Assembly (NCBI RefSeq): GCF_026409565.1
Contig: NZ_CP112881.1
Location: forward strand, 248,001-312,000
Source of the DNA: Sneathiella aquimaris
GTDB lineage: Bacteria; Pseudomonadota; Alphaproteobacteria; Sneathiellales; Sneathiellaceae
DNA: 64,000 bases
Reading direction: 5' to 3'
Positions 5,387 through 53,558 of this stretch are shown one piece after another (positions within the stretch are counted from its first letter, which is position 1; each line of letters starts with the position of its first letter). The position numbers and the translations under genes were made by a program. The notes under the pieces were generated by a model. The model was not told the origin of the DNA. It made no database searches and saw only the letters and a program-made list of their open reading frames with translations.

Positions 5387-5462
5387 GCCGCTGTAGCTCA
5401 GTTGGTAGAGCACCGCATTCGTAATGCGTAGGTCGGAGGTTCGAGTCCTCTCAGCGGCACCA
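5387..5462 (+). tRNA. tRNA-Thr (anticodon CGT)
   Basis: The 76-nt cloverleaf includes an encoded CCA. The acceptor stem GCCGCTG pairs fully with CAGCGGC, the D arm is GCTC...GAGC, the T arm is GGAGG TTCGAGT CCTCT, and the anticodon loop TTCGTAA has CGT at 5420-5422. The outermost anticodon-stem pair is a mismatch. Its 3' part is the left attachment site of the island that follows, so the element restores an intact tRNA after integration. Confidence 0.95.
5416..5462 (+). repeat. attL, within the tRNA-Thr 3' end
   Basis: Bases 5416-5457 are identical to 53512-53553. After one C/T difference (5458 versus 53554) the ACCA end is again shared. The repeat runs from the anticodon stem and loop through the T arm to CCA, a typical crossover target of P4-type integrases. 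Confidence 0.93.
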
Positions 5463-5494: not shown

Positions 5495-5531
5495 TTTTTA
5501 GACACTTTTCAAGAGCGTTTTAGACACTTTT
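5495..5531 (+). promoter_or_regulatory. Two candidate integrase arm-binding sites beside attL
   Basis: TTTTTAGACACTTTT at 5495-5509 and TTTTAGACACTTTT at 5518-5531 are near-perfect direct repeats 23 bases apart. The second overlaps the integrase stop codon. The same motif occurs twice inside attR (53419-53433 and 53469-53480). Paired motifs at both ends are what arm-type sites of a tyrosine integrase would look like; the binding role is inferred. Confidence 0.6.
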
Positions 5532-6557
5532 GTATTTGCTTTGTTCCAATTTTTGCATTGCTGTCTGAGCTTGACGCTTTTGATCAACAGTTCTGACATA
5601 CCTTTCAACGGAGTCATTTGTGGTATGACCTGTGACGGCTCTGATCTCGTTGATTGTGCATCCTGCTTCTGCCAATCTTGTAGCGACGGTGACACGAAGG
5701 CCGTGAATAGTAAGTCCCTTACCAATTTTTCCTTGATTAATTAGCGATCGTTTTAATTTCTGAAATTGAGTTTGAAAGCCACTAGACGTGTAGGGTTTGC
5801 CATGTGTGTTGAGAACAATAAAAGCTGGTCCTCTATCCATACTATCTAGTATTGCTCTGAGCTCGGTGATCACAGGGACCCAAACAAAGTCTCCTGTTTT
5901 GGATTGTTGGCATTGTATTAAGCCATTCTGGTAATCACTCCATTTAAGACTGAGCACATCTCCACTTCGCAGAGCTGTATATGCACTCAACCCAATGCCA
6001 GCGGCGATTTCGGCCGTTGGAGCGTTTTTAAGAACCACTGTAATTTCTTCATTGGTCCACGGCCTATTGGCAGGAGCCTTGCGCTTGTCCCTGGGAATTC
6101 TGCGAATTTTTTCTACTGGGTTTTGTTTGCAAAGACCGTTACGAATACCGAAATTAAATGTAAGCGATAGAACGCCGAGCATTTTGTTCGTAAAGTCTCT
6201 TTTTCTCTCTTTTAGCGTATGGTTTTTGAGCTCTTCCACAGAAACAGGAGTTATTCTGTCTAGTGGGGCGGCCCTCATATTGCTCAGATAACTGAATATG
6301 TTTTGGTAGTCTGATTTGGTTCTTGGTGCCAAGCGATGAAAATCTTCGCTGCTACGATATTTTTCGATTAGCGCTCCCCATGTTCCAGGTATGGAACCAA
6401 ATTTTTCTGGCTCACAGATGTGATTGAGTTCTTCTACTTTGAGCGCAAAGCGAAGAGTTCCGTATTTTTCTTTAATTCGAGTGCCAGATTTACGGTGGTA
6501 ATAATATTTTTTGCCATTTGAACGGTATGACTTTACGCCATGGATTTTGATGTCCAT
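5520..6557 (-). CDS. int: Tyrosine recombinase, island integrase (P4/phage type)
   Basis: This 345-residue protein has an N-terminal arm-binding region (KSYRSNGKKYYYHRKSGTR), a core-binding SAM-like domain and a C-terminal catalytic domain. All catalytic residues are visible: R197 (TALRSGD), K220 (QSKTG), H285 and R288 (HGLR), H311 (TGHTT) and the nucleophile Y320 (ERYV). It should cut and rejoin attP with the tRNA-Thr site. It reads towards attL, stops 58 bases from the tRNA, and is preceded two bases upstream by an AlpA-like gene, so the two are probably one transcript. It appears intact, so excision may still be possible. Confidence 0.95.
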   Translation of the reverse strand: MDIKIHGVKSYRSNGKKYYYHRKSGTRIKEKYGTLRFALKVEELNHICEPEKFGSIPGTWGALIEKYRSSEDFHRLAPRTKSDYQNIFSYLSNMRAAPLDRITPVSVEELKNHTLKERKRDFTNKMLGVLSLTFNFGIRNGLCKQNPVEKIRRIPRDKRKAPANRPWTNEEITVVLKNAPTAEIAAGIGLSAYTALRSGDVLSLKWSDYQNGLIQCQQSKTGDFVWVPVITELRAILDSMDRGPAFIVLNTHGKPYTSSGFQTQFQKLKRSLINQGKIGKGLTIHGLRVTVATRLAEAGCTINEIRAVTGHTTNDSVERYVRTVDQKRQAQTAMQKLEQSKYKSV

Positions 6558-7374: not shown

Positions 7375-8415
7375 CTAGGCGCCATTACTGACACATGGCG
7401 CATATGGCAGCGCAGGCTCTAACAGAAATTTCTCAAAAACCTGCTGCCCGGACGCCTCTACCAGTGACCGGGCAGCATGCGGCAATTCATTCAATGAGCG
7501 CGCAACATCATCAAGAGCAATCGGAGTGTCTGTCTCCGGCACGTCAATGCGTATAACATTGTCTTTACCAGTCAGCAGGAAGGCTTGCCCGAGCGCGTTT
7601 TTCGACTGGGCGCGCGATGCTGCCAGAAACGGCAACAGGATCGCCCAGTCCTTTTTGCCGCCCTTCTGTGCTGTCTCACTCAGCGAAAACGTGGCCTCAC
7701 CAGTGCCAAGACTGAGGATGCGAATGTTCTCCCGTGGCACATCGTAACAGGCAAGTGCGTCAACAAGGGCATTCATGATTGGATTGTTGGCCCAAATACC
7801 GCCATCAATCATCACATATCCGCCGTCCTTCACAGCCGGAAAAATTGTCGGTGCCGCTGTCGTATGCAAGGCGATGTCGACCAACGTTTTGTGCTGGTCC
7901 AGTTTGTAGTCGGGATGATGCGGGGTCTTGTAGATCACTGGCTCGCCATAGAGCCCGTCGAAACTGGGTATCACGCAGCGATTACGGGCTTCGCCAAATA
8001 GAGTGGTGCCGAATTCTACCTTCAGTTCCTCTCTAAGTACTGCCTGATCATGTTTGGGTTTGAAGAACGAAGTAGCCCAGCGCAGCAATCTAGGAAGTCC
8101 CCGTTTTGAAGGGAAAATCTTCTCGCCACGCTTCGTATAGATCGACAGCGCCTGCTCTGCCGTCATGCCCTTCGCCAATGCCAGCGTGATGATGCCGCCG
8201 GTCGAAGTGCCTGCAATCATATCAAAATGATCACCGACCGATGCACCGCCCAAAAACCGTCTTTCCAATTCAGCCAGATAGGCCGCCGGAAACACGCCGC
8301 GAATGCCGCCGCCGTCGATGGATAGAATCCTAAATGGTTTTCCCGTCGGCCAGCTTTGCAAGACACGCCGCTGCTGGATTGTGCCATCCGATCTTCTTCT
8401 CACCATCTCATTCAT
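7375..8415 (-). CDS. capV: CapV-type patatin-like phospholipase, CBASS effector
   Basis: This 346-residue lipid hydrolase degrades the inner membrane when switched on by the cyclic oligonucleotide made by its partner CD-NTase, causing abortive infection. It shows the patatin oxyanion loop DGGGIRG (34-40), nucleophile S71 in GTSTGG and the catalytic D204 in MIDGGIWANNP, all intact. ATG at 8415 has GGAGGT nine bases upstream and starts next to the E2 stop at 8418; a longer frame to 8568 only overlaps the E2 gene. It is the last gene of the operon. CapV is one of the commonest CBASS effectors, often activated by cGAMP; the ligand here is not known. Confidence 0.92.
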   Translation of the reverse strand: MNEMVRRRSDGTIQQRRVLQSWPTGKPFRILSIDGGGIRGVFPAAYLAELERRFLGGASVGDHFDMIAGTSTGGIITLALAKGMTAEQALSIYTKRGEKIFPSKRGLPRLLRWATSFFKPKHDQAVLREELKVEFGTTLFGEARNRCVIPSFDGLYGEPVIYKTPHHPDYKLDQHKTLVDIALHTTAAPTIFPAVKDGGYVMIDGGIWANNPIMNALVDALACYDVPRENIRILSLGTGEATFSLSETAQKGGKKDWAILLPFLAASRAQSKNALGQAFLLTGKDNVIRIDVPETDTPIALDDVARSLNELPHAARSLVEASGQQVFEKFLLEPALPYAPCVSNGA

Positions 8416-8417
8416 AC

Positions 8418-8861
8418 CTATTCGACCTCCAATTCCTCGTTGTGCCCCACCTCCTGATGGCGGCCGCCACCGGTCCATCTGCCTGTCATCAGCCAGAGCT
8501 CGTAACAGGCTAGCCAATCGAGCGCCCAAGGCACAATTGTCTCGCTGATCAGCATTGAGTGATCCCACTCGTCATTTGCAGGGTCGTACAGACAAAGCGT
8601 CGGATCATCCGCTGGTGGGTAGACATGCGGAAGTTGACCTTCTTCGTTGTCCGGCAGTCTTGTCAGTTCGGGAGACAGGACCCGCACCTGAGGCGGTTTC
8701 GGGACCAAATGCGAGATCTCAATTCTATAGGTTTGAAACTGCGGCCGCACTGTGCCGACCCACTTGATCCTACCTCGCCGTTGTCCACGGCGTTTCAGTC
8801 CCGGCCACATACGCGTCATGGATGCAATCTGCGCATTGTTTGTCAGGATCGGTCCGCGCAT
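8418..8861 (-). CDS. E2-like conjugating protein of type II-short CBASS
   Basis: This 147-residue protein lies between the CD-NTase and the effector and overlaps the CD-NTase stop (TGATG). PTLCLYDP (Cys90), the WDHSMLISETIVPWALDWL segment and a closing LMTGRWTGGGRH match the prokaryotic E2-like proteins of CBASS operons that lack the E1-JAB partners. In a studied Serratia system, such an E2 links to the CD-NTase C-terminus and raises its activity. Cys90 is the likely catalytic residue. No Cap3/JAB peptidase gene is present, which fits the short subtype. The family assignment rests on this segment and the gene position. Confidence 0.8.
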   Translation of the reverse strand: MRGPILTNNAQIASMTRMWPGLKRRGQRRGRIKWVGTVRPQFQTYRIEISHLVPKPPQVRVLSPELTRLPDNEEGQLPHVYPPADDPTLCLYDPANDEWDHSMLISETIVPWALDWLACYELWLMTGRWTGGGRHQEVGHNEELEVE

Positions 8862-10117
8862 CAAATTTTCTTTCCAAAAAATGTGTGTGCGCGTCCTGAT
8901 GCCACAGCCCCGGTTGCAGCTGCAGTAGCAGGTGCGGCAACAATGGCGGGTGTTGGCACGATTAACTTGCCTCTCGGTGCATAGTGCTGGGTGCTATCCT
9001 TCACGGAACTGCCGACCTGGTCAGCCATTCTGTCCGCCGCTTTGGTGACGACGCGCTCACCAAATTGTTCACGCAGCCAGACCATCATGTCGGTTGGTGC
9101 GACCCGTCCGGCCTTTATATTTTCAAGGCCTTTGACTAGGTCTTCCAGCTGCCGGGCATAGATACTTTGCTGAACGACGGTTTCCGGCCAGCGATCCGTG
9201 AAAATGTCCTGATCATGGCACGGATTGCAGACATCGATGGTGCGATTATAGAGCGATGCAATCTCGATCTCTGAGATGATAAACTTGGCCATTCGTATGA
9301 CCATGTCGGACAGTGATGTGTTTGGCCGTGCCGTGGTGCCCGCATAGTAGGACAAAAGGACCGACGGTGGCATCCGTCCGTCGATGTCCGAGTATTTGAT
9401 GTTGCGATATCGTTTGTGAAGCTGAAGCGCCAATGTCGCGGTGTTCTTGACCACAAAGGAAATCGGCTCGGGGACATCGTCAACTTCGGCATCTGCGCGG
9501 ATCGACAATGGATCGTAGTCTTCCCAACGCTTGGCAAAACTGTCGACAACACGCTGTTCCAACGGTGTGCGTGCGCGATACCAAAGACCGAACGCCTTGG
9601 TATTCATCGGCACCATATGGTCCTTGGTCGATTCTGCCGGCCCCTTGGCGTGGCAGATGTGGCTCTGCCGGTCCGGAGTCAGCAATTCGCGGATCGACGG
9701 GGAGATATCCAGATGCATCCCGTCGCTGTAATAGAGCGTGACGCACCGACTCTGGCGTACGACTTTCAGCCCACGATAGCCCTTGAGGGCTGCTTCCAGT
9801 TCCTTGAGAATTTTGAGAGGCGACATGTGGCGGAAGCTGCCGCCAAGCTGCGCCACAATGTCGAGGTCGTACTCGTCATCGGTGCCTTTGGTCGATATCG
9901 TCGCGTCGATTGACATCGAGCCCTGAGGGTAGAAGTGCTCGACCTGATCCTTGAACAACTCGGATGTTTCTTCGAGATAATTACGGACAGCCTCATAGCG
10001 TTCCACGGCTTTCTGATATTGCGTCGGCGGCAGCTGCAGGCTGAATGCGATTTCAGCAAGAATCCGGTCTAGCGGATCGTCAAACGGGTCTATGCCCTGC
10101 GTATTTGAGATGTTCAT
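8861..10117 (-). CDS. CD-NTase, cyclic oligonucleotide synthase of CBASS
   Basis: This 418-residue cGAS/DncV-like nucleotidyltransferase senses phage infection and makes a cyclic di- or trinucleotide that activates CapV. It has the pol-beta signature GS (66-67, YPQGSMSI) followed by D84 and D86 in EYDLDIV, and a third acidic residue D137 in GMHLDISP. The C-terminal tail is Ala/Gly-rich and ends HTFFGKKI, a flexible tail suited to conjugation by the E2. ATG at 10117 has GGGAGG six bases upstream. It is first in the operon, under the divergent promoter at 10213-10282. The clade and product cannot be told from reading alone. Confidence 0.9.
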   Translation of the reverse strand: MNISNTQGIDPFDDPLDRILAEIAFSLQLPPTQYQKAVERYEAVRNYLEETSELFKDQVEHFYPQGSMSIDATISTKGTDDEYDLDIVAQLGGSFRHMSPLKILKELEAALKGYRGLKVVRQSRCVTLYYSDGMHLDISPSIRELLTPDRQSHICHAKGPAESTKDHMVPMNTKAFGLWYRARTPLEQRVVDSFAKRWEDYDPLSIRADAEVDDVPEPISFVVKNTATLALQLHKRYRNIKYSDIDGRMPPSVLLSYYAGTTARPNTSLSDMVIRMAKFIISEIEIASLYNRTIDVCNPCHDQDIFTDRWPETVVQQSIYARQLEDLVKGLENIKAGRVAPTDMMVWLREQFGERVVTKAADRMADQVGSSVKDSTQHYAPRGKLIVPTPAIVAAPATAAATGAVASGRAHTFFGKKI

Positions 10118-10166
10118 TATTTACCTCCCTTTCGAGATATCTTGTCTTGCTTGCGTTGCGTTGCAT
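10080..10166 (-). CDS. Possible 28-residue leader peptide overlapping the CD-NTase start
   Basis: GGGAGG eight bases before ATG at 10166 opens a 28-codon frame that runs through the CD-NTase ribosome site and ends at 10080, inside the CD-NTase gene in another frame. Its start is basic (MQRNASKTRY). Its ribosome site is as good as that of the CD-NTase itself, so it could couple or damp CD-NTase translation. There is no protein-level evidence and it may be chance. Confidence 0.3.
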   Translation of the reverse strand: MQRNASKTRYLEREVNNEHLKYAGHRPV

Positions 10167-10212
10167 GGTGGTCCTCCCTTCGTTTAATTCACGATGGTGA
10201 AAAAAAACACTC

Positions 10213-10282
10213 GCTACTCCGAACATCATATGAGAGCTTGAAAGCCAGAGTCAAGGGTGTTATTGTTTAGCTACTCCGAACA
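10213..10282. promoter_or_regulatory. Overlapping divergent promoters with two identical 13-bp operators
   Basis: Towards the CD-NTase (minus strand): TTGACT at 10254-10249, 18 bases, then TATGAT at 10230-10225. Towards the regulator (plus strand): TTGAAA at 10238-10243, 17 bases, then TATTGT at 10261-10266. GCTACTCCGAACA occurs at 10213-10225 and again at 10270-10282, each starting at or just past a -10 box, where a bound repressor would block both start sites. The motif and promoters are visible; binding by the Xre-family regulator is inferred. Confidence 0.75.
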
Positions 10283-10304
10283 ACAACAGATTTTGGAATT
10301 TCTA

Positions 10305-10640
10305 ATGCCCGCACAGCCCAAATTTGGTACAAGAATCAAGGAATTACGGACCGGGAAAAAAATGACCCTGGACCAATTGGCTGAAGCAACTAAGAGCTCC
10401 AAAAGCTACATTTGGGAGCTGGAAAATAAAAACCCACCACGCCCTTCAGCTGAAAAACTGTCTGCGATCGCAAGGGCTCTTGGTGTCACCGTCGACTACT
10501 TGCTTGGTACCGACGAGCAGACCAAGGCTGACGCAGAGGACATGGCTTTCTTTCGCGAATATTCCGATATGCCGGATGAAACACGCAGACAGCTCCGCGA
10601 CATGGCGAAGATCTTAAGCAACAAGACCGGGCTGAAATGA
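10305..10640 (+). CDS. capH: CapH-like Xre-family repressor of the CBASS operon
   Basis: This 111-residue protein has an N-terminal Cro/C1 helix-turn-helix (MTLDQLAEATKSSKSYIWEL) and a short C-terminal helix (ETRRQLRDMAKIL). It is divergent from the CBASS operon and directly followed by a COG2856 metallopeptidase. CapH/CapP pairs regulate CBASS in this way: CapH represses, and CapP cuts CapH when DNA damage exposes single-stranded DNA. ATG at 10305 is chosen over an upstream in-frame start at 10257 because the longer form would run through the promoter and operator. It probably also represses itself. Confidence 0.82.
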   Translation: MPAQPKFGTRIKELRTGKKMTLDQLAEATKSSKSYIWELENKNPPRPSAEKLSAIARALGVTVDYLLGTDEQTKADAEDMAFFREYSDMPDETRRQLRDMAKILSNKTGLK

Positions 10641-11543
10641 ATGGGTGCCATCTCGGCTTCACCAGCTCTTAAGGAGGCTTTCCGCATCACTAGGATGCTG
10701 GACACCGTGCTGGGTGAAGACCGTTTCGATAAATCTCCCATCCAGATTGAAGAACTCGCGCTGCAGTACTCTGCACAAACCGCACCCGAAACCCCCATCC
10801 ATGAAGTCACTGAGAAAAATATTCCAGGGTGCATGGGCGCATTGGTCTATGGCGACAACCGGCCGCGACAATGGGGTATCCTCTATCATCACGACCAGAC
10901 ACCAGGTCGACGAGCCTATACGATCGCACATGAATTTGGCCACTACATCCTGCATCGCGATCTCATTGATCGCGAAGAGAAGTATGGTGGCGGCGTTTAT
11001 TGCAACGAAGACAGCATTCTGCGCCGCAATGGCGCTGGTATCGAGCAGGAAGCTGACGAATTTGCCGCCAATCTACTCATGCCGCTCAATGATTTCAGAA
11101 AGCAGATCCCTGCCAAAGCTGTTCCGAATTTTGACGATCTCGGCAATATCGCCGAAAGGTATGGTGTGTCGCTGACAGCCGCGACTTTGCGATGGATTGA
11201 ATACACTGAAACACGAGCATTGCTGGTAATCAGCAATGAAGGCTTTGCCCATTGGGCGAAGACCAGCACACCGGCCCTAAAATCAGGACGCTTTATTCGC
11301 ACACGAAACACGATGTTTGAACTGCCAGCGGCCGCAACCGCTGTAACGCACAACTACTGCGACGAAACCGCAAACGGTATCCAACAACCAGCAGACGTCT
11401 GGTTTCCTGAGCCGGTGTTAGAAATGTGCATACGATCAGAACGCTATGATCAGGAAATGACTTTACTCCATCTGGAGCGATCAGCACCTGTTCACCAAGA
11501 AGAAGTCGAAGAAGATACGTTCGACCGATTCACGCGCGGATAG
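10641..11543 (+). CDS. capP: CapP-like COG2856 (ImmA/IrrE) zinc metallopeptidase
   Basis: This 300-residue protein carries the gluzincin motif HEFGH (H97-H101) and, about 36 residues on, EADEFAANLLMP, which supplies the third metal ligand typical of ImmA/IrrE proteins. A less conserved sensor domain follows to the C-terminus. It probably cleaves the Xre-type repressor encoded just upstream (stop and start are adjacent) and so turns on the CBASS genes under stress. A phage-type ImmA acting on a prophage repressor is the alternative, but the divergent CBASS operon favours CapP. Confidence 0.85.
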   Translation: MGAISASPALKEAFRITRMLDTVLGEDRFDKSPIQIEELALQYSAQTAPETPIHEVTEKNIPGCMGALVYGDNRPRQWGILYHHDQTPGRRAYTIAHEFGHYILHRDLIDREEKYGGGVYCNEDSILRRNGAGIEQEADEFAANLLMPLNDFRKQIPAKAVPNFDDLGNIAERYGVSLTAATLRWIEYTETRALLVISNEGFAHWAKTSTPALKSGRFIRTRNTMFELPAAATAVTHNYCDETANGIQQPADVWFPEPVLEMCIRSERYDQEMTLLHLERSAPVHQEEVEEDTFDRFTRG

Positions 11544-12014: not shown

Positions 12015-13527
12015 ATGAATTTTAATGTTATTGAAAACCAACACTCAATTTCTGGATTGAGATACGCGCCTGGTCGTGAGTTCGACCATTGCCGAAATGT
12101 TTGGATCCAAAGCGCTGAGACCACGCACCGGCCCGATTGTCCCAATTGTAAACGCCCTATGCAGACCCATCGGTCTCGCAAACGCATTATCAATGATATG
12201 CCTTTTGGAGCCTTTCCGTCTGAGCTTCATATTAAATGGCGCGAGTTTCGATGCAGATGCCAGCATGGAGGTACTCGCTATGTTCACTGAGTCTTCCTAT
12301 ACATATGCGAAAGCAAATGTTCCTGGGATTTCCAGCGAACTTGGTTGCACCAATACACTGGCTGAGTTTGTTGGTAAGTATCGAAATTTGTCTCGATTGT
12401 CTGTCATAGGTGAGATGACAGGTTTATCGGGGTACCGTTTAAAAACCATTGAGAAAGCTGTGAAAGTAAGACAGCCACCCGGGATCGTAAAGAAGTTAAA
12501 CCCAAGGATTATCCGGATCGATGATCTCTCTGTCACGCGAACCTATCAGGACGAAAAGGGACGAAAAACCCTAAAGGGGCATTTGGTATTGTCTGGGGCT
12601 GGGTTTACGGAAGCCGCATTTGAGCAAGGTATCCATGATACAGGGTTTTTGGCTATGGTGGCGGGGACAACACGGGCAGATGCTGTAAAGCTGTTCCGTC
12701 AGACTCTCAATTGTGATGCTGTACAATATGTTACGCTGGATTTATCGCAAACATTAATTAGCGCGGCCTATGAGGCGTGTCCCAATGCTATTGTGGTTGC
12801 CGACAAGTTTCATGTCCTTAAATTGGTGACAGCTGCTTTTGAAAAAGTTGCAATTGACCAACGTCTTAAACTTCGCAAAGAGCGGCAGAGTTTTCAAAGA
12901 GCCAGAAACTATATGAAGCGACCGCCTAAAAACCTTAGTGATGTAGAAAAACGGGTGATGGTGGAATGGCTTGTCAGGTTGCCAGAGCTGCATCAGGCCT
13001 ATGAGCTCAGACGGGTCTTTTTTGAGCTGTTTGAAATGGATATCTCACCGCAGGACGCGCGCCGGGCCTTGCTGCGGTGGTTGGATTTTCTGCCAGCAAA
13101 AGGACCGGTGGGGACCGCGTTTCGATCCGTTGGCCAGACTGTAAAAAAGTATCTCACTGAGATTTGTGCCTATTTTCACTGTAACCTGACCAATGCGCCC
13201 GCGGAAGCCTATAACCGACGGATCAAGGAAATTGTTGCTGTAGGCGGTGTCCGGACTTTGGAGGACTTGATCGAGCGGGTGAGAGCCGGGCATGGGTATG
13301 AGGCTCGACAGGCTCTTGACCGGATTTCCAGTCAACCTCCAAAGAAGCGGCAGCCGCTTTGGAACCATGTCCCTGCTCAGAATACAGCGATTTGGGTGCG
13401 CCCGGTAAAGGCCCGGGACGGCGAATTGCCTTTGGCACCCATCCGACCGATGGGACTCCTGGAAGCCGGCGATCGATTGAGGACCTTATCTATTGCAACT
13501 CTTTTGTGGCCAGAGAAATTCCACTAA
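12015..13527 (+). pseudogene. ISL3-family transposase, frameshifted
   Basis: Two frames together make one ISL3 transposase. Bases 12015-12290 give the N-terminal zinc ribbon (CPNCKRPM ... FRCRC). From about 12270 the next frame carries the catalytic part: RIDDLSVTR, the VADKFHVLKL segment and the closing acidic residue in NAPAEAYNRRIKEI. The shift near 12270-12300 has no obvious slippery heptamer, so this looks like a disabled copy and not programmed frameshifting. The downstream hairpin terminator at 13550 lies within or just after the element. Confidence 0.8.
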
Positions 13528-13549
13528 ACCTTTGGAAAACACCGAATAA

Positions 13550-13576
13550 CCCGCCCCGCTGGGGGCGGGTTTTTTA
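13550..13576 (+). terminator. Rho-independent terminator after the ISL3 transposase
   Basis: CCCGCCCC (13550-13557) pairs with GGGGCGGG (13562-13569) and is followed by TTTTTTTA. This is a strong GC stem with a T run, in plus orientation. Confidence 0.85.
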
Positions 13577-13632
13577 TGTGGAGATGAAAGGAATAGGGCC
13601 TCAATCCCGGGAGCCCCGCAGATGAAAAATCA

Positions 13633-13748
13633 GGTGGTTTTGCCCTCCCGAAGCGTAAAAACCGCATCTTCGGAAGGGGCTGGAAATCTGCCGGTTTTGG
13701 GGCCAAGAGTCCGATAAATAAAATTATCGGACTCTTGGCAAAACCACC
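13633..13748. repeat. Nested inverted-repeat element next to the second recombinase
   Basis: There are three stems. The outer one is GGTGGTTTTGCC (13633-13644) with GGCAAAACCACC (13737-13748), perfect over 12 bp. Hairpin 1 is CCCTCCCGAAG (13643-13653) with CTTCGGAAGGG (13668-13678), 10 of 11 paired. Hairpin 2 is a perfect 16-bp inverted repeat (13702-13717 with 13724-13739) around a six-base spacer ATAAAA. AAAACCG (13658-13664) and CGGTTTT (13692-13698) can also pair. No T run follows on either strand, so it is not a simple terminator. A 16-6-16 layout resembles a tyrosine-recombinase core site, and the whole resembles a folded single-strand recombination site or structured RNA. Confidence 0.7.
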
Positions 13749-13782
13749 ACATTTTAAACAGTGCCGGGACGGGGGCTTTCTT

Positions 13783-14793
13783 TTAGTCCGGAATTCGGAT
13801 GTAGCGGGACACTCCTTCCAATGTTTTATGGCCGGATCGAGCCCGGATCTGCCACAGGCTGTCGCCTTGCAGACCGGCCCGGGTGATATAGCCGCTGCGC
13901 AAACTATGGGCGCTTATGCCATGGCTTTTCGCTTGAACCTCCTTCTCGGATATGCCCTGGCGGGTGAGCAGCTGTTGATAACGTGATTTTGTGGCGCGGG
14001 AGATCGACCGCGGGGTGAGCGCCGTTGTTCCGATGCGCCCCAGTCGGTCAACGCCGCGAAACACCGGCCCCTCTTTGAGGCCCGCCGCCTTCAACCAACG
14101 CTCTAGGGCCGCGGCCGGGCAGAGCTGTGGATCGCGCTCGCGCGGAATGACTTTGCGTTGGCCCAGGCGCTTGGCATCATTTTTGGCGCGGCGGATCAGG
14201 ATTTTGAGGGCCTCTTCTGTCCAGACACAGTCCGCGCAGTGCAGCGCGCTTAATTCACTGCGCCGAAAAGCGCCAAAAAATCCAACCAGCAACAGCGCTG
14301 CATCGCGCAGGTCCCGCACCCCCACGCCCAATCCCTGAACGATTTCCTGTAGCTCCGCATAGGTCAGCGGGATTTTGGCATCAGCCGGACGTCCCTCAAT
14401 CCGGTAAATGCCCTCCATCACGTGACGCAGCAGGGGATGATGCGGATCGAACGCCAGATCCCGGGCGTAAAACCCATCGGCAATACCGAAGACTTTGCGG
14501 GTGAGGGAGGCCGGGGCCAAATTCATCGCCCGGTCGGCCAGATATAAGGCGACCAGCGGCTCTCCGGGTCCGTCGCCGCAGGGCGCCAGATGTTGCGCCG
14601 CGCACCACTGACAGTAGGCGGTCCAATCCTGATGGTAGGCCCGCTGGGTTGTCTCGGCATGGGCGGCTTGCAAATAACATCGGGCGCGGCTAAGAGCCGG
14701 TTGGAGGGAGGCAGGAAGGGCCGCAAGGGACAGGTCGCGCCGTTGGGTTTCAGGTGCGTTTGGCTCCCCCTTAATGATGCGGTGTTTGGGCAT
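13783..14793 (-). CDS. Second tyrosine recombinase, GC-rich
   Basis: This 336-residue site-specific recombinase has a core-binding domain with AETTQRAYHQDWTAYCQWC (about 46-64) and a catalytic domain with R177 (GAFRRSEL), H296 and R299 (HSLRSG), H322 (SGHKTL) and nucleophile Y331 (SRYIR), so it appears active. It ends a few residues after the Tyr. It lacks the extra integron-integrase segment as far as I can judge. Its coding sequence is much more GC-rich than neighbouring island DNA, so it came from a different source. It points towards the nested inverted repeats 35 bases past its stop, a plausible substrate. AAAGGAAG precedes ATG at 14793. Confidence 0.88.
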   Translation of the reverse strand: MPKHRIIKGEPNAPETQRRDLSLAALPASLQPALSRARCYLQAAHAETTQRAYHQDWTAYCQWCAAQHLAPCGDGPGEPLVALYLADRAMNLAPASLTRKVFGIADGFYARDLAFDPHHPLLRHVMEGIYRIEGRPADAKIPLTYAELQEIVQGLGVGVRDLRDAALLLVGFFGAFRRSELSALHCADCVWTEEALKILIRRAKNDAKRLGQRKVIPRERDPQLCPAAALERWLKAAGLKEGPVFRGVDRLGRIGTTALTPRSISRATKSRYQQLLTRQGISEKEVQAKSHGISAHSLRSGYITRAGLQGDSLWQIRARSGHKTLEGVSRYIRIPD

Positions 14794-14963: not shown

Positions 14964-15314
14964 ATGCAACTTGAAGATGTCACAGAGGGAGAGCTGGTCG
15001 TCCCCGGCAAACTGGCAAAACTCTTGCGGACCGACGCAAAAGAGATTGCCTGGACGATTGGGCTTGATGAGAGTGTATTGAAACGCCATTCCTCTCGTCA
15101 CACGCCAGATACCCAAAGACGCCTTCGCGAGCTTGTAGACGCACTTTTGATCCTGACGCCACGCTTTGGCTCGCCCCTCATGGCTTATGCCTGGTACCGG
15201 TCTGTACCCCGCGCTGGTTTTGCCGGCTGGACGGCCATGCAGCTGGCCCAGGCTGGAAAGGTTGAGGAACTCCATTTATATCTGGGGGCCGTTGATTCGG
15301 GCGTGTTTGCCTGA
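14964..15314 (+). CDS. Orphan Xre/MbcA/ParS-type antitoxin
   Basis: This 116-residue protein has an N-terminal DNA-binding-like helical part (GKLAKLLRTDAKEIAWTIGL) and a C-terminal toxin-binding domain (DUF2384 type) with SVPRAGFAGWTAMQLAQAG and the LYLGAVDSGVFA end. These antitoxins normally neutralise an adjacent RES toxin that destroys NAD+. No RES gene is adjacent here; the only one in the window (42915) has its own antitoxin. It may act as a stand-alone regulator, or its toxin may be lost. AGGA lies upstream of ATG at 14964. GC content matches the recombinase before it. Confidence 0.72.
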   Translation: MQLEDVTEGELVVPGKLAKLLRTDAKEIAWTIGLDESVLKRHSSRHTPDTQRRLRELVDALLILTPRFGSPLMAYAWYRSVPRAGFAGWTAMQLAQAGKVEELHLYLGAVDSGVFA

Positions 15315-42914: not shown

Positions 42915-43664
42915 TTAGGCCGGTTCTGGAAGGTTTCCATCGATCACAAACAGATCCCTTGGAAATTCCACGAATTGGGTTCGGTCAAGTTTGAGGACCA
43001 CCCGGCTTCGCGTGGCTTCACAATAGCATTTTAGCATTTGAACAGGCTTCTTTGAGATTATCCCTGCGGGCTCAAAAATGGCGATATTTAAGCCTGCCTT
43101 GGGGCAGCGCGCTGACTGATAGGTAATCCCCTGGATCTCGGCTGCTCTTAGCTCACTGCCGAGCGCCTGGGTTGGCTGATAGTTGGTTTTGTGCTGTAGG
43201 GTGTCTGTGGAGGCTGTAAAGGGCGCTTTAGTCAGATCGAGACCATGCTCACATTTGAACCTGACTGAAAAAAGATCATAGCTTGCCCGGATCATTGGAT
43301 TGGGGAACTCCTCCTCAACACCTTCCAAAAATACGAACCGGTAATAGGTCAGTTCTGCTGCCGCTGTTTCCTTTAGGAGGGATCCATAGAAGATGGACAT
43401 CTCATGTTGGGCCCCAAAACGCGATCCCCATTTTAAGGGAGGATATCTGAATGGGGTGGCAAGTAAGTAGTCATCTGGCGCCGTTTTTGGACAGGAGGGC
43501 TTGGTCGCATCCAGTAACTCTTCAAGCCGCATTTGTTCATCAAGGGTTTCAACCAGCTCCATGGTGGCGATTTCTGACTGGCCCTCAACAACTCGCCAAA
43601 GGAGACCCTTGAGGGTCTCGGGTTGAGCCTGGCTTAGAACCTCTTTCCACTCAGATCTTTCCAC
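42915..43664 (-). CDS. RES-domain toxin
   Basis: This 249-residue protein is a RES toxin, which breaks down NAD+ (by phosphorolysis or hydrolysis) when freed from its antitoxin. The Arg-Glu-Ser trio of the family is visible: Arg24 in LLWRVVEG, Glu in KETAAAELTYYR and Ser in ITYQSARCP, with the supporting FRYPPLKWGSRFG motif. GTG at 43664 overlaps the end of the antitoxin gene by 14 bases, giving the usual antitoxin-then-toxin order. The open frame is intact. Confidence 0.88.
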   Translation of the reverse strand: MERSEWKEVLSQAQPETLKGLLWRVVEGQSEIATMELVETLDEQMRLEELLDATKPSCPKTAPDDYLLATPFRYPPLKWGSRFGAQHEMSIFYGSLLKETAAAELTYYRFVFLEGVEEEFPNPMIRASYDLFSVRFKCEHGLDLTKAPFTASTDTLQHKTNYQPTQALGSELRAAEIQGITYQSARCPKAGLNIAIFEPAGIISKKPVQMLKCYCEATRSRVVLKLDRTQFVEFPRDLFVIDGNLPEPA

Positions 43665-44010
43665 GCATGCCGTCCAGGTAAATGAGGACGCTATTCAGTC
43701 CCTGTACCGACTTAATAAGCTCCCTTGGAATACCGTTCAGATGTTTATTGCGTGTTCCAAACCAGTGCTTCATGTTTTTCGGATCCCCGCCGACCAGCGT
43801 GTGCAGAGCGCGATAGCAGCGAACAAAGAGAAGAGCTAGCTCCCCAGTCTTTGTTGTAGGGTCAATACCGCGATTGATGGCTGTCCGATCCCGTCCAATT
43901 ATCTTGGCCAGTTCCTCAAGCGGGATCCCAAGATTAGAGGCGGCATTCTTGGCGGCTTTGGCCAGGATGGCTTTATCATCTACTTCAATTGCTTGTTGCT
44001 GTAGTGCCAT
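43651..44010 (-). CDS. Xre/MbcA/ParS-family antitoxin of the RES toxin
   Basis: This 119-residue protein has an N-terminal helix-turn-helix (NLGIPLEELAKIIGRDRTAI) and a C-terminal toxin-binding region (WFGTRNKHLNGIPRELIKSV ... VLIYLDGMRGKI). It neutralises the RES protein and represses its own operon in characterised pairs. It is first in the two-gene operon. Upstream (44030-44100) lies its likely promoter. Confidence 0.85.
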   Translation of the reverse strand: MALQQQAIEVDDKAILAKAAKNAASNLGIPLEELAKIIGRDRTAINRGIDPTTKTGELALLFVRCYRALHTLVGGDPKNMKHWFGTRNKHLNGIPRELIKSVQGLNSVLIYLDGMRGKI

Positions 44011-53511: not shown

Positions 53512-53558
53512 CATTCGTAATGCGTAGGTCGGAGGTTCGAGTCCTCTCAGCGGTACCA
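53512..53558 (+). repeat. attR, copy of the tRNA-Thr 3' end
   Basis: 46 of 47 bases equal attL. It starts at CATTCGTAAT and ends ACCA; there is no 5' tRNA half, so it is not a second tRNA gene. It marks the right end of the island. Confidence 0.92.

Follow-up and report, generated by a model that had tools for sequence, protein, structure and literature searches.

In TnpI-IRS of the Tn3-family transposons Tn4430 and Tn5401, an inverted-repeat core (IR1-IR2) adjoins the recombinase gene and further subsites lie beside it (PMC7157771). The single-recombinase Xer systems XerS-difSL and XerH-difH each combine one recombinase with a palindromic site that is linked to it genetically (PMC2731167). 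The sites cer and psi consist of a core of about 30 bp with accessory DNA and are served by the host proteins XerC/XerD with ArgR, ArcA or PepA (PMC5357621). Resolution sites, cer and IRS among them, usually have accessory DNA next to the core (PMC7157771, PMC5357621), and large plasmids commonly carry their own recombinase adjoining its site (PMC5357621). Integrons, too, pair a tyrosine recombinase, IntI, with a foldable site, attC.

Here we analyze a conserved folded element and the tyrosine recombinase gene next to it in the marine bacterium Sneathiella aquimaris, within a window (the whole stretch analyzed) of 64,000 nucleotides, positions 248001-312000 of a single-contig genome of 3.94 Mb. 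A literature search found no description of this recombinase family or of its site. As in TnpI-IRS, one tyrosine recombinase is encoded beside an inverted-repeat core; unlike that system, the Sneathiella locus has no Tn3-family transposase (its neighbour is of ISL3 type, and is absent in one of the related genomes), has no accessory direct-repeat half-sites such as DR1 and DR2 of Tn4430, and in the Sneathiella clade has its site downstream of the gene. The linkage of a single recombinase to a palindromic site is shared with XerS-difSL and XerH-difH, but those belong to the chromosome terminus, whereas the Sneathiella family is found in plasmid and island contexts. Furthermore, the half-site, TTATCGGAC, differs from that of dif, and Xer profiles score far under their cut-offs, the XerC/XerD family models giving 16-27 bits against cut-offs above 329. 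A core of about 30 bp with accessory DNA is also the arrangement of cer and psi, but in Sneathiella the recombinase is encoded beside the site. Likewise, the locus has in common with attC/IntI a tyrosine recombinase and a foldable site, but it lacks R-boxes, its palindrome is perfect and not bulged, and the recombinase does not match the IntI model. The pair would most probably act in the manner of TnpI-IRS or XerS-difSL, but it belongs to neither: it has no Tn3 transposase and no accessory direct repeats, and its Xer scores are low.

The recombinase gene and the folded element

The recombinase gene (13783-14793, reverse strand) is complete, is oriented toward the folded element and encodes 336 aa, by length a short two-domain type. 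All the catalytic residues recognized in an earlier reading of the sequence alone are in place (R177, K204, H296, R299, H322 and Y331, for the superfamily pattern R-K-H-R-H/W-Y), and dN/dS values of 0.16-0.19 against two orthologs indicate purifying selection on the gene. The Phage_integrase profile matched the protein with an E value of 9.8e-5, under the curated cut-off, and a PHROG integrase match had an E value of 1e-12. The same Phage_integrase profile also matches the integrase (5520-6557) that, with the tRNA-Thr gene at 5387-5462, forms part of a tRNA-Thr island. The two proteins are distant members of one superfamily, and to call them unrelated, as the sequence-only reading did, was too strong. 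An AlphaFold model of the recombinase built from two sequences had a mean pLDDT of 39.

The folded element occupies positions 13625-13755, an interval that folds with z scores of -7.4 as RNA, -6.7 as the top DNA strand and -8.6 as the bottom DNA strand, the two strands having been folded as that reading proposed; none of 200 shuffles folded as well. Its center is a perfect 16-nt inverted repeat, with arms GCCAAGAGTCCGATAA (13702-13717) and TTATCGGACTCTTGGC (13724-13739) on the forward strand, separated by the 6-nt spacer ATAAAA (13718-13723), the presumed crossover region; the core reads AGTCCGATAA-ATAAAA-TTATCGGACT. Around it lie outer arms of 19 nt with 89% complementarity (13626-13644 and 13737-13755), in which the left arm GGTGGTTTTGCC (13633-13644, forward strand) pairs with 13737-13748, and an inner stem CCCTCCCGAAGCG...CGCATCTTCGGAAGGG (13643-13678, forward strand), whose sequence is conserved. 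The repeat and its six-base spacer are thus exactly as first read, and so, nearly, is the distance of some 35 bp from the recombinase stop, which is 34 bp to the outer arm (13748) and 43 bp from the end of the coding sequence to the core. Three strong stems had been proposed; the third inner stem (~13680-13700) is weak, and RNA and DNA folds disagree on it. The element contains no T run and no terminator, in agreement with the same reading; the nearest one, a clear terminator at 13548-13571, belongs to the ISL3-type transposase.

This transposase (12015-13527, forward strand) is split across two overlapping frames, 12015-12290 with a weak Zn-ribbon match and 12076-13527 with a DDE domain, possibly joined by frameshifting, and no terminal repeats were found for it. 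We designate the window's own genome G000 and two other Sneathiella genomes G005 and G009; of the three, only G009 does not have the transposase next to the element. Next to the recombinase gene is a small ORF (14964-15314, forward strand), antitoxin-like by eye only and with no Pfam match, which is conserved at this place in G005 and, beyond an insertion, in G009. The tRNA-Thr island also carries a CBASS-type defence operon at 7375-11543, with a phospholipase effector, an E2-like protein and a CD-NTase cyclase, in a region that also holds a divergent CapH/CapP-type regulator and protease. A RES-domain toxin with an Xre/MbcA/ParS antitoxin is located at 42915-44010, and homologous DNA is present in the tRNA-Thr islands of G005 and G009.

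Copies of the element in Sneathiella

We compared 95 related genomes, with a Sneathiella subset of 24. Close orthologs of the recombinase (68% identity) were found only in G005 and G009 among the 95, and the element lies about 20-40 bp 3' of the stop codon at all three gene-linked loci (G000, G005 and G009), so that homologous genes do carry it. Single-protein scans of genome contigs and viral contigs gave no match to the recombinase, an alignment-based scan found only Sneathiella glossodoripedis among the genome contigs and nothing among the viral contigs, and phage records yielded remote matches only. Identity to G005 and G009 is 87% and 81% for the element, and 67% and 66% for the DNA of the recombinase gene, with a gene dS of at least 1.5.

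Searching the 24 Sneathiella genomes with a covariance model made from four copies recovered five elements, and nothing else that was convincing: three adjoin the three recombinase genes, one is a solo copy in G000 and one a decayed copy in G005. The solo copy (C1:314299-314431) lies in direct orientation 52.7 kb from the element of the window; its left half-site is AATCCGCTCA and its spacer is ATAGGA, as in the other core-bearing copies outside the window, against ATAAAA in the window, and this decayed copy looks like a relic. The second G005 copy, also direct, is 29 kb away and has lost its core by deletion; behind it come remnants of the recombinase, of the small neighbouring ORF and of the tRNA-Thr integrase. 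Each of the two extra copies directly follows a repeated tRNA-Thr 3' end, a repeat that marks an attachment site of the tRNA-Thr island. Three further copies of this 3' end (53512-53558 in the window, L022:2235-2293 and C1:328636-328691) were observed downstream of the tRNA-Thr gene, as if several islands had accreted there in tandem. Matches in G023 (30 bp) and in G043 and G082 (short) are probably due to chance, and no core-like site above background, and no chromosomal target site, was found elsewhere in the 24 genomes. A search of the window's own genome with an E. coli-like dif pattern, from which alphaproteobacterial dif may differ, gave no match.

The left edge of homology is identical in three contexts, namely the terminator of the ISL3-type transposase, a shortened G009 gene (the Sinorhizobium homolog has 305 aa) and the tRNA-Thr 3' end, which suggests that a module probably ends at the left margin of the element. 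This shared edge sits 77 bp from the core. There is no homology edge on the right, where homology runs on into the recombinase in all gene-linked copies.

Sites beside distant recombinases

Many distant homologs of the recombinase (25-38% identity) are carried by plasmids of Alphaproteobacteria, with genes for ScpA/ScpB, RepA, ParA or toxin-antitoxin systems as neighbours; the best plasmid matches (34-37% identity) come from Roseomonas, Methylobacterium, Acetobacter, Gluconobacter, Alicyclobacillus and Salinibacter. Using a palindrome-only scan, in which any palindrome with a 5-9 bp spacer was accepted and no motif was preset, we observed strong sites shortly upstream of several plasmid-borne relatives, such as CTAGGAGCGATAA-ACGCCT-TTCTCGCTCCTAG. 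Sites of chromosomal relatives, two of which belong to other Sneathiella species, include TCCGATAA-CCTCCAC-TTATCGGA and CCTACGATAA-TGCTCA-TTATCGTAGG. The common inner motif, near the gene start of the distant homologs, is cGATAA-N6/7-TTATCg; it is shared by both arms of the window core, the left one containing TCCGATAA as its inner part. The site lies upstream of the gene in nearly all relatives and downstream in the Sneathiella ortholog clade.

In a directed test, GATAA-N6/7-TTATC with at most 2 mismatches and an arm symmetry of at least 9/12 was sought in the 360-bp region at the gene start of 38 homologs, the three Sneathiella orthologs being left out. A site was present in 20 of these loci, some of which are close kin (four Gluconobacter, several Roseomonas), against a shuffle mean of 0.22 and a maximum of 2; the count is partly self-defined, since GATAA/TTATC was taken from the first matches, a circularity of which the palindrome-only scans are free. 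Outside the gene starts, these loci span another 107 kb, in which 13 sites were found, and about half of the homologs have no site under these criteria. Half-site positions 1-5 form part of the search criterion, so that their conservation is not independent evidence. Distances between recombinases correlated with distances between sites after removal of near-identical proteins (Mantel r 0.42, reached by 0 of 5000 permutations) and also when Sneathiella was excluded (r 0.36, 5 of 5000), a correlation that could come from linked inheritance alone. Furthermore, plasmid NZ_CP043044 of Gluconobacter thailandicus shares with a G. albidus plasmid ScpB, the left arm and the spacer, and the two diverge inside the right half-site; the recombinase gene is absent from NZ_CP043044, which is a single natural case of a breakpoint within a homologous site.

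Because of the palindrome-only scans, the directed counts, the distance correlation and the Gluconobacter breakpoint, we consider it about 90% probable that positions 13702-13739 are the core (crossover) site of the adjacent recombinase. The core-site geometry that had been recognized at the outset thus reappears, with the same inner motif and spacers of 6 or 7 bp, in the palindromes beside the genes of distant homologs.

Two other arrangements were observed among these loci. On the G. thailandicus plasmid a second, different palindrome (L133:2980-3014, CCTATGTCCGTTAA-TTTCTA-TTATCGGACATAGG) lies about 170 bp from the broken site, and its half-site is nearly identical to that of Sneathiella. 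In L098 a family-type site is present on each side of a relative's gene, 139 bp before and 195 bp after the aligned part, and the spacers of the two sites differ.

A candidate resolution module and its alternatives

The core site and its recombinase probably form a resolution module for multimers or cointegrates. This role appears the most likely one because the recombinase is short (336 aa), its relatives lie in plasmid-maintenance neighbourhoods, large plasmids provide a precedent, and no chromosomal target was found. We infer that two recombinase monomers would bind the two half-sites (TTATCGGAC read outward on each side), and that strands would be cut and exchanged with those of another copy of the site across the 6-bp spacer. 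DNA joined as direct repeats, whether a multimer of the excised island or of an ancestral plasmid, or a transposition cointegrate, would be split by such site-by-site recombination. The element of the window is chromosomal and not on a plasmid; the pair now found in a chromosomal island could have been required by the circular form of the excised island or by an ancestral plasmid.

The ~75 bp that precede the core on its left, together with the outer stems, may act as accessory sequence that sets the timing or topology of site pairing, an accessory role being the natural guess for these stems. Their sequence is conserved, but as stems they are weaker in G009 and in G000's second copy; the fold of the element is strong in all three gene-linked copies and weak in that second copy. 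The best match to an extra half-site in the accessory part was no better than in shuffles for all four copies. Downstream of distant homologs no fold was as strong as those of the orthologs, two moderate z scores (-3.2 and -3.6) being found, and the homologous sites of distant relatives have no nested outer stems. It is conceivable, if rather unlikely, that in one clade the core site came to lie 3' of the gene and acquired a nested palindromic accessory region of about 75 bp around it, with recombination controlled by cruciform extrusion or by an island- or host-encoded factor; an integrated chromosomal island would then regulate its own multimer resolution.

A different proposal, in which an integrative element carrying this recombinase uses the folded element as its attachment site, so that core-by-core recombination inserts or excises cargo, seems improbable to us. 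It would account for the second direct copies, at distances of 52.7 kb (G000) and 29 kb (G005), and for a left edge that is the same in all copies though the DNA leftward differs; but that edge is 77 bp off the core and not at it, no core-like site rises above background elsewhere in the 24 genomes, and both second copies are decayed. Since the G000 copy is damaged (AATCCGCTCA) and has a different spacer (ATAGGA), and the G005 copy is coreless, present integration or excision of cargo is unlikely. A second copy, which the sequence-only reading had suggested looking for as a boundary of cargo, does exist, but its decay and its different spacer make such a function improbable today.

If the fold itself were what matters, the element would be a folded single-strand substrate or a structured RNA (attC-like, or a 3' UTR RNA), as the very stable nested fold on both strands and in the three gene-linked copies might suggest. 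Such a role is very unlikely: double-sided changes numbered 2 against 1.0 in shuffles, with 124 of 500 shuffles of the four sequences reaching that value, so that the covariation looked for in the stems is no better than chance; Rfam returned only the tRNA and nothing in the element; and the second G000 copy folds weakly, while homologous sites do without nested stems. Identity with attC in particular is rejected, the R-box (GTTRRRY / RYYYAAC) being absent on both strands, as the first reading had itself observed of the classic end motifs, and the recombinase having no match to the integron-integrase model (integrase_gron). There is hardly any likelihood that the element is an IS end, a MITE or a transcription terminator. 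Its terminal inverted arms of 19 nt and its length of 131 bp are MITE-like, and the ISL3-type transposase is directly to its left, but in G009 the element occurs with no ISL3-type gene beside it, no matching inverted end is found across the transposase, the only boundary is the left one, with none at 13755, and the 24 genomes hold no solo copies with target-site duplications. A terminator is rejected in turn, as the element has no T run and the one nearby is that of the transposase.

Short tyrosine recombinases of plasmids and islands are usually annotated simply as 'site-specific integrase', without a target. The shared palindromic core cGATAA-N6/7-TTATCg beside many members of this family gives each of these a testable candidate crossover site, and suggests that they resolve multimers rather than integrate. 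The family may yield new small recombinase-site pairs, and the conserved extra stems of Sneathiella pose a concrete question on how such sites are regulated.
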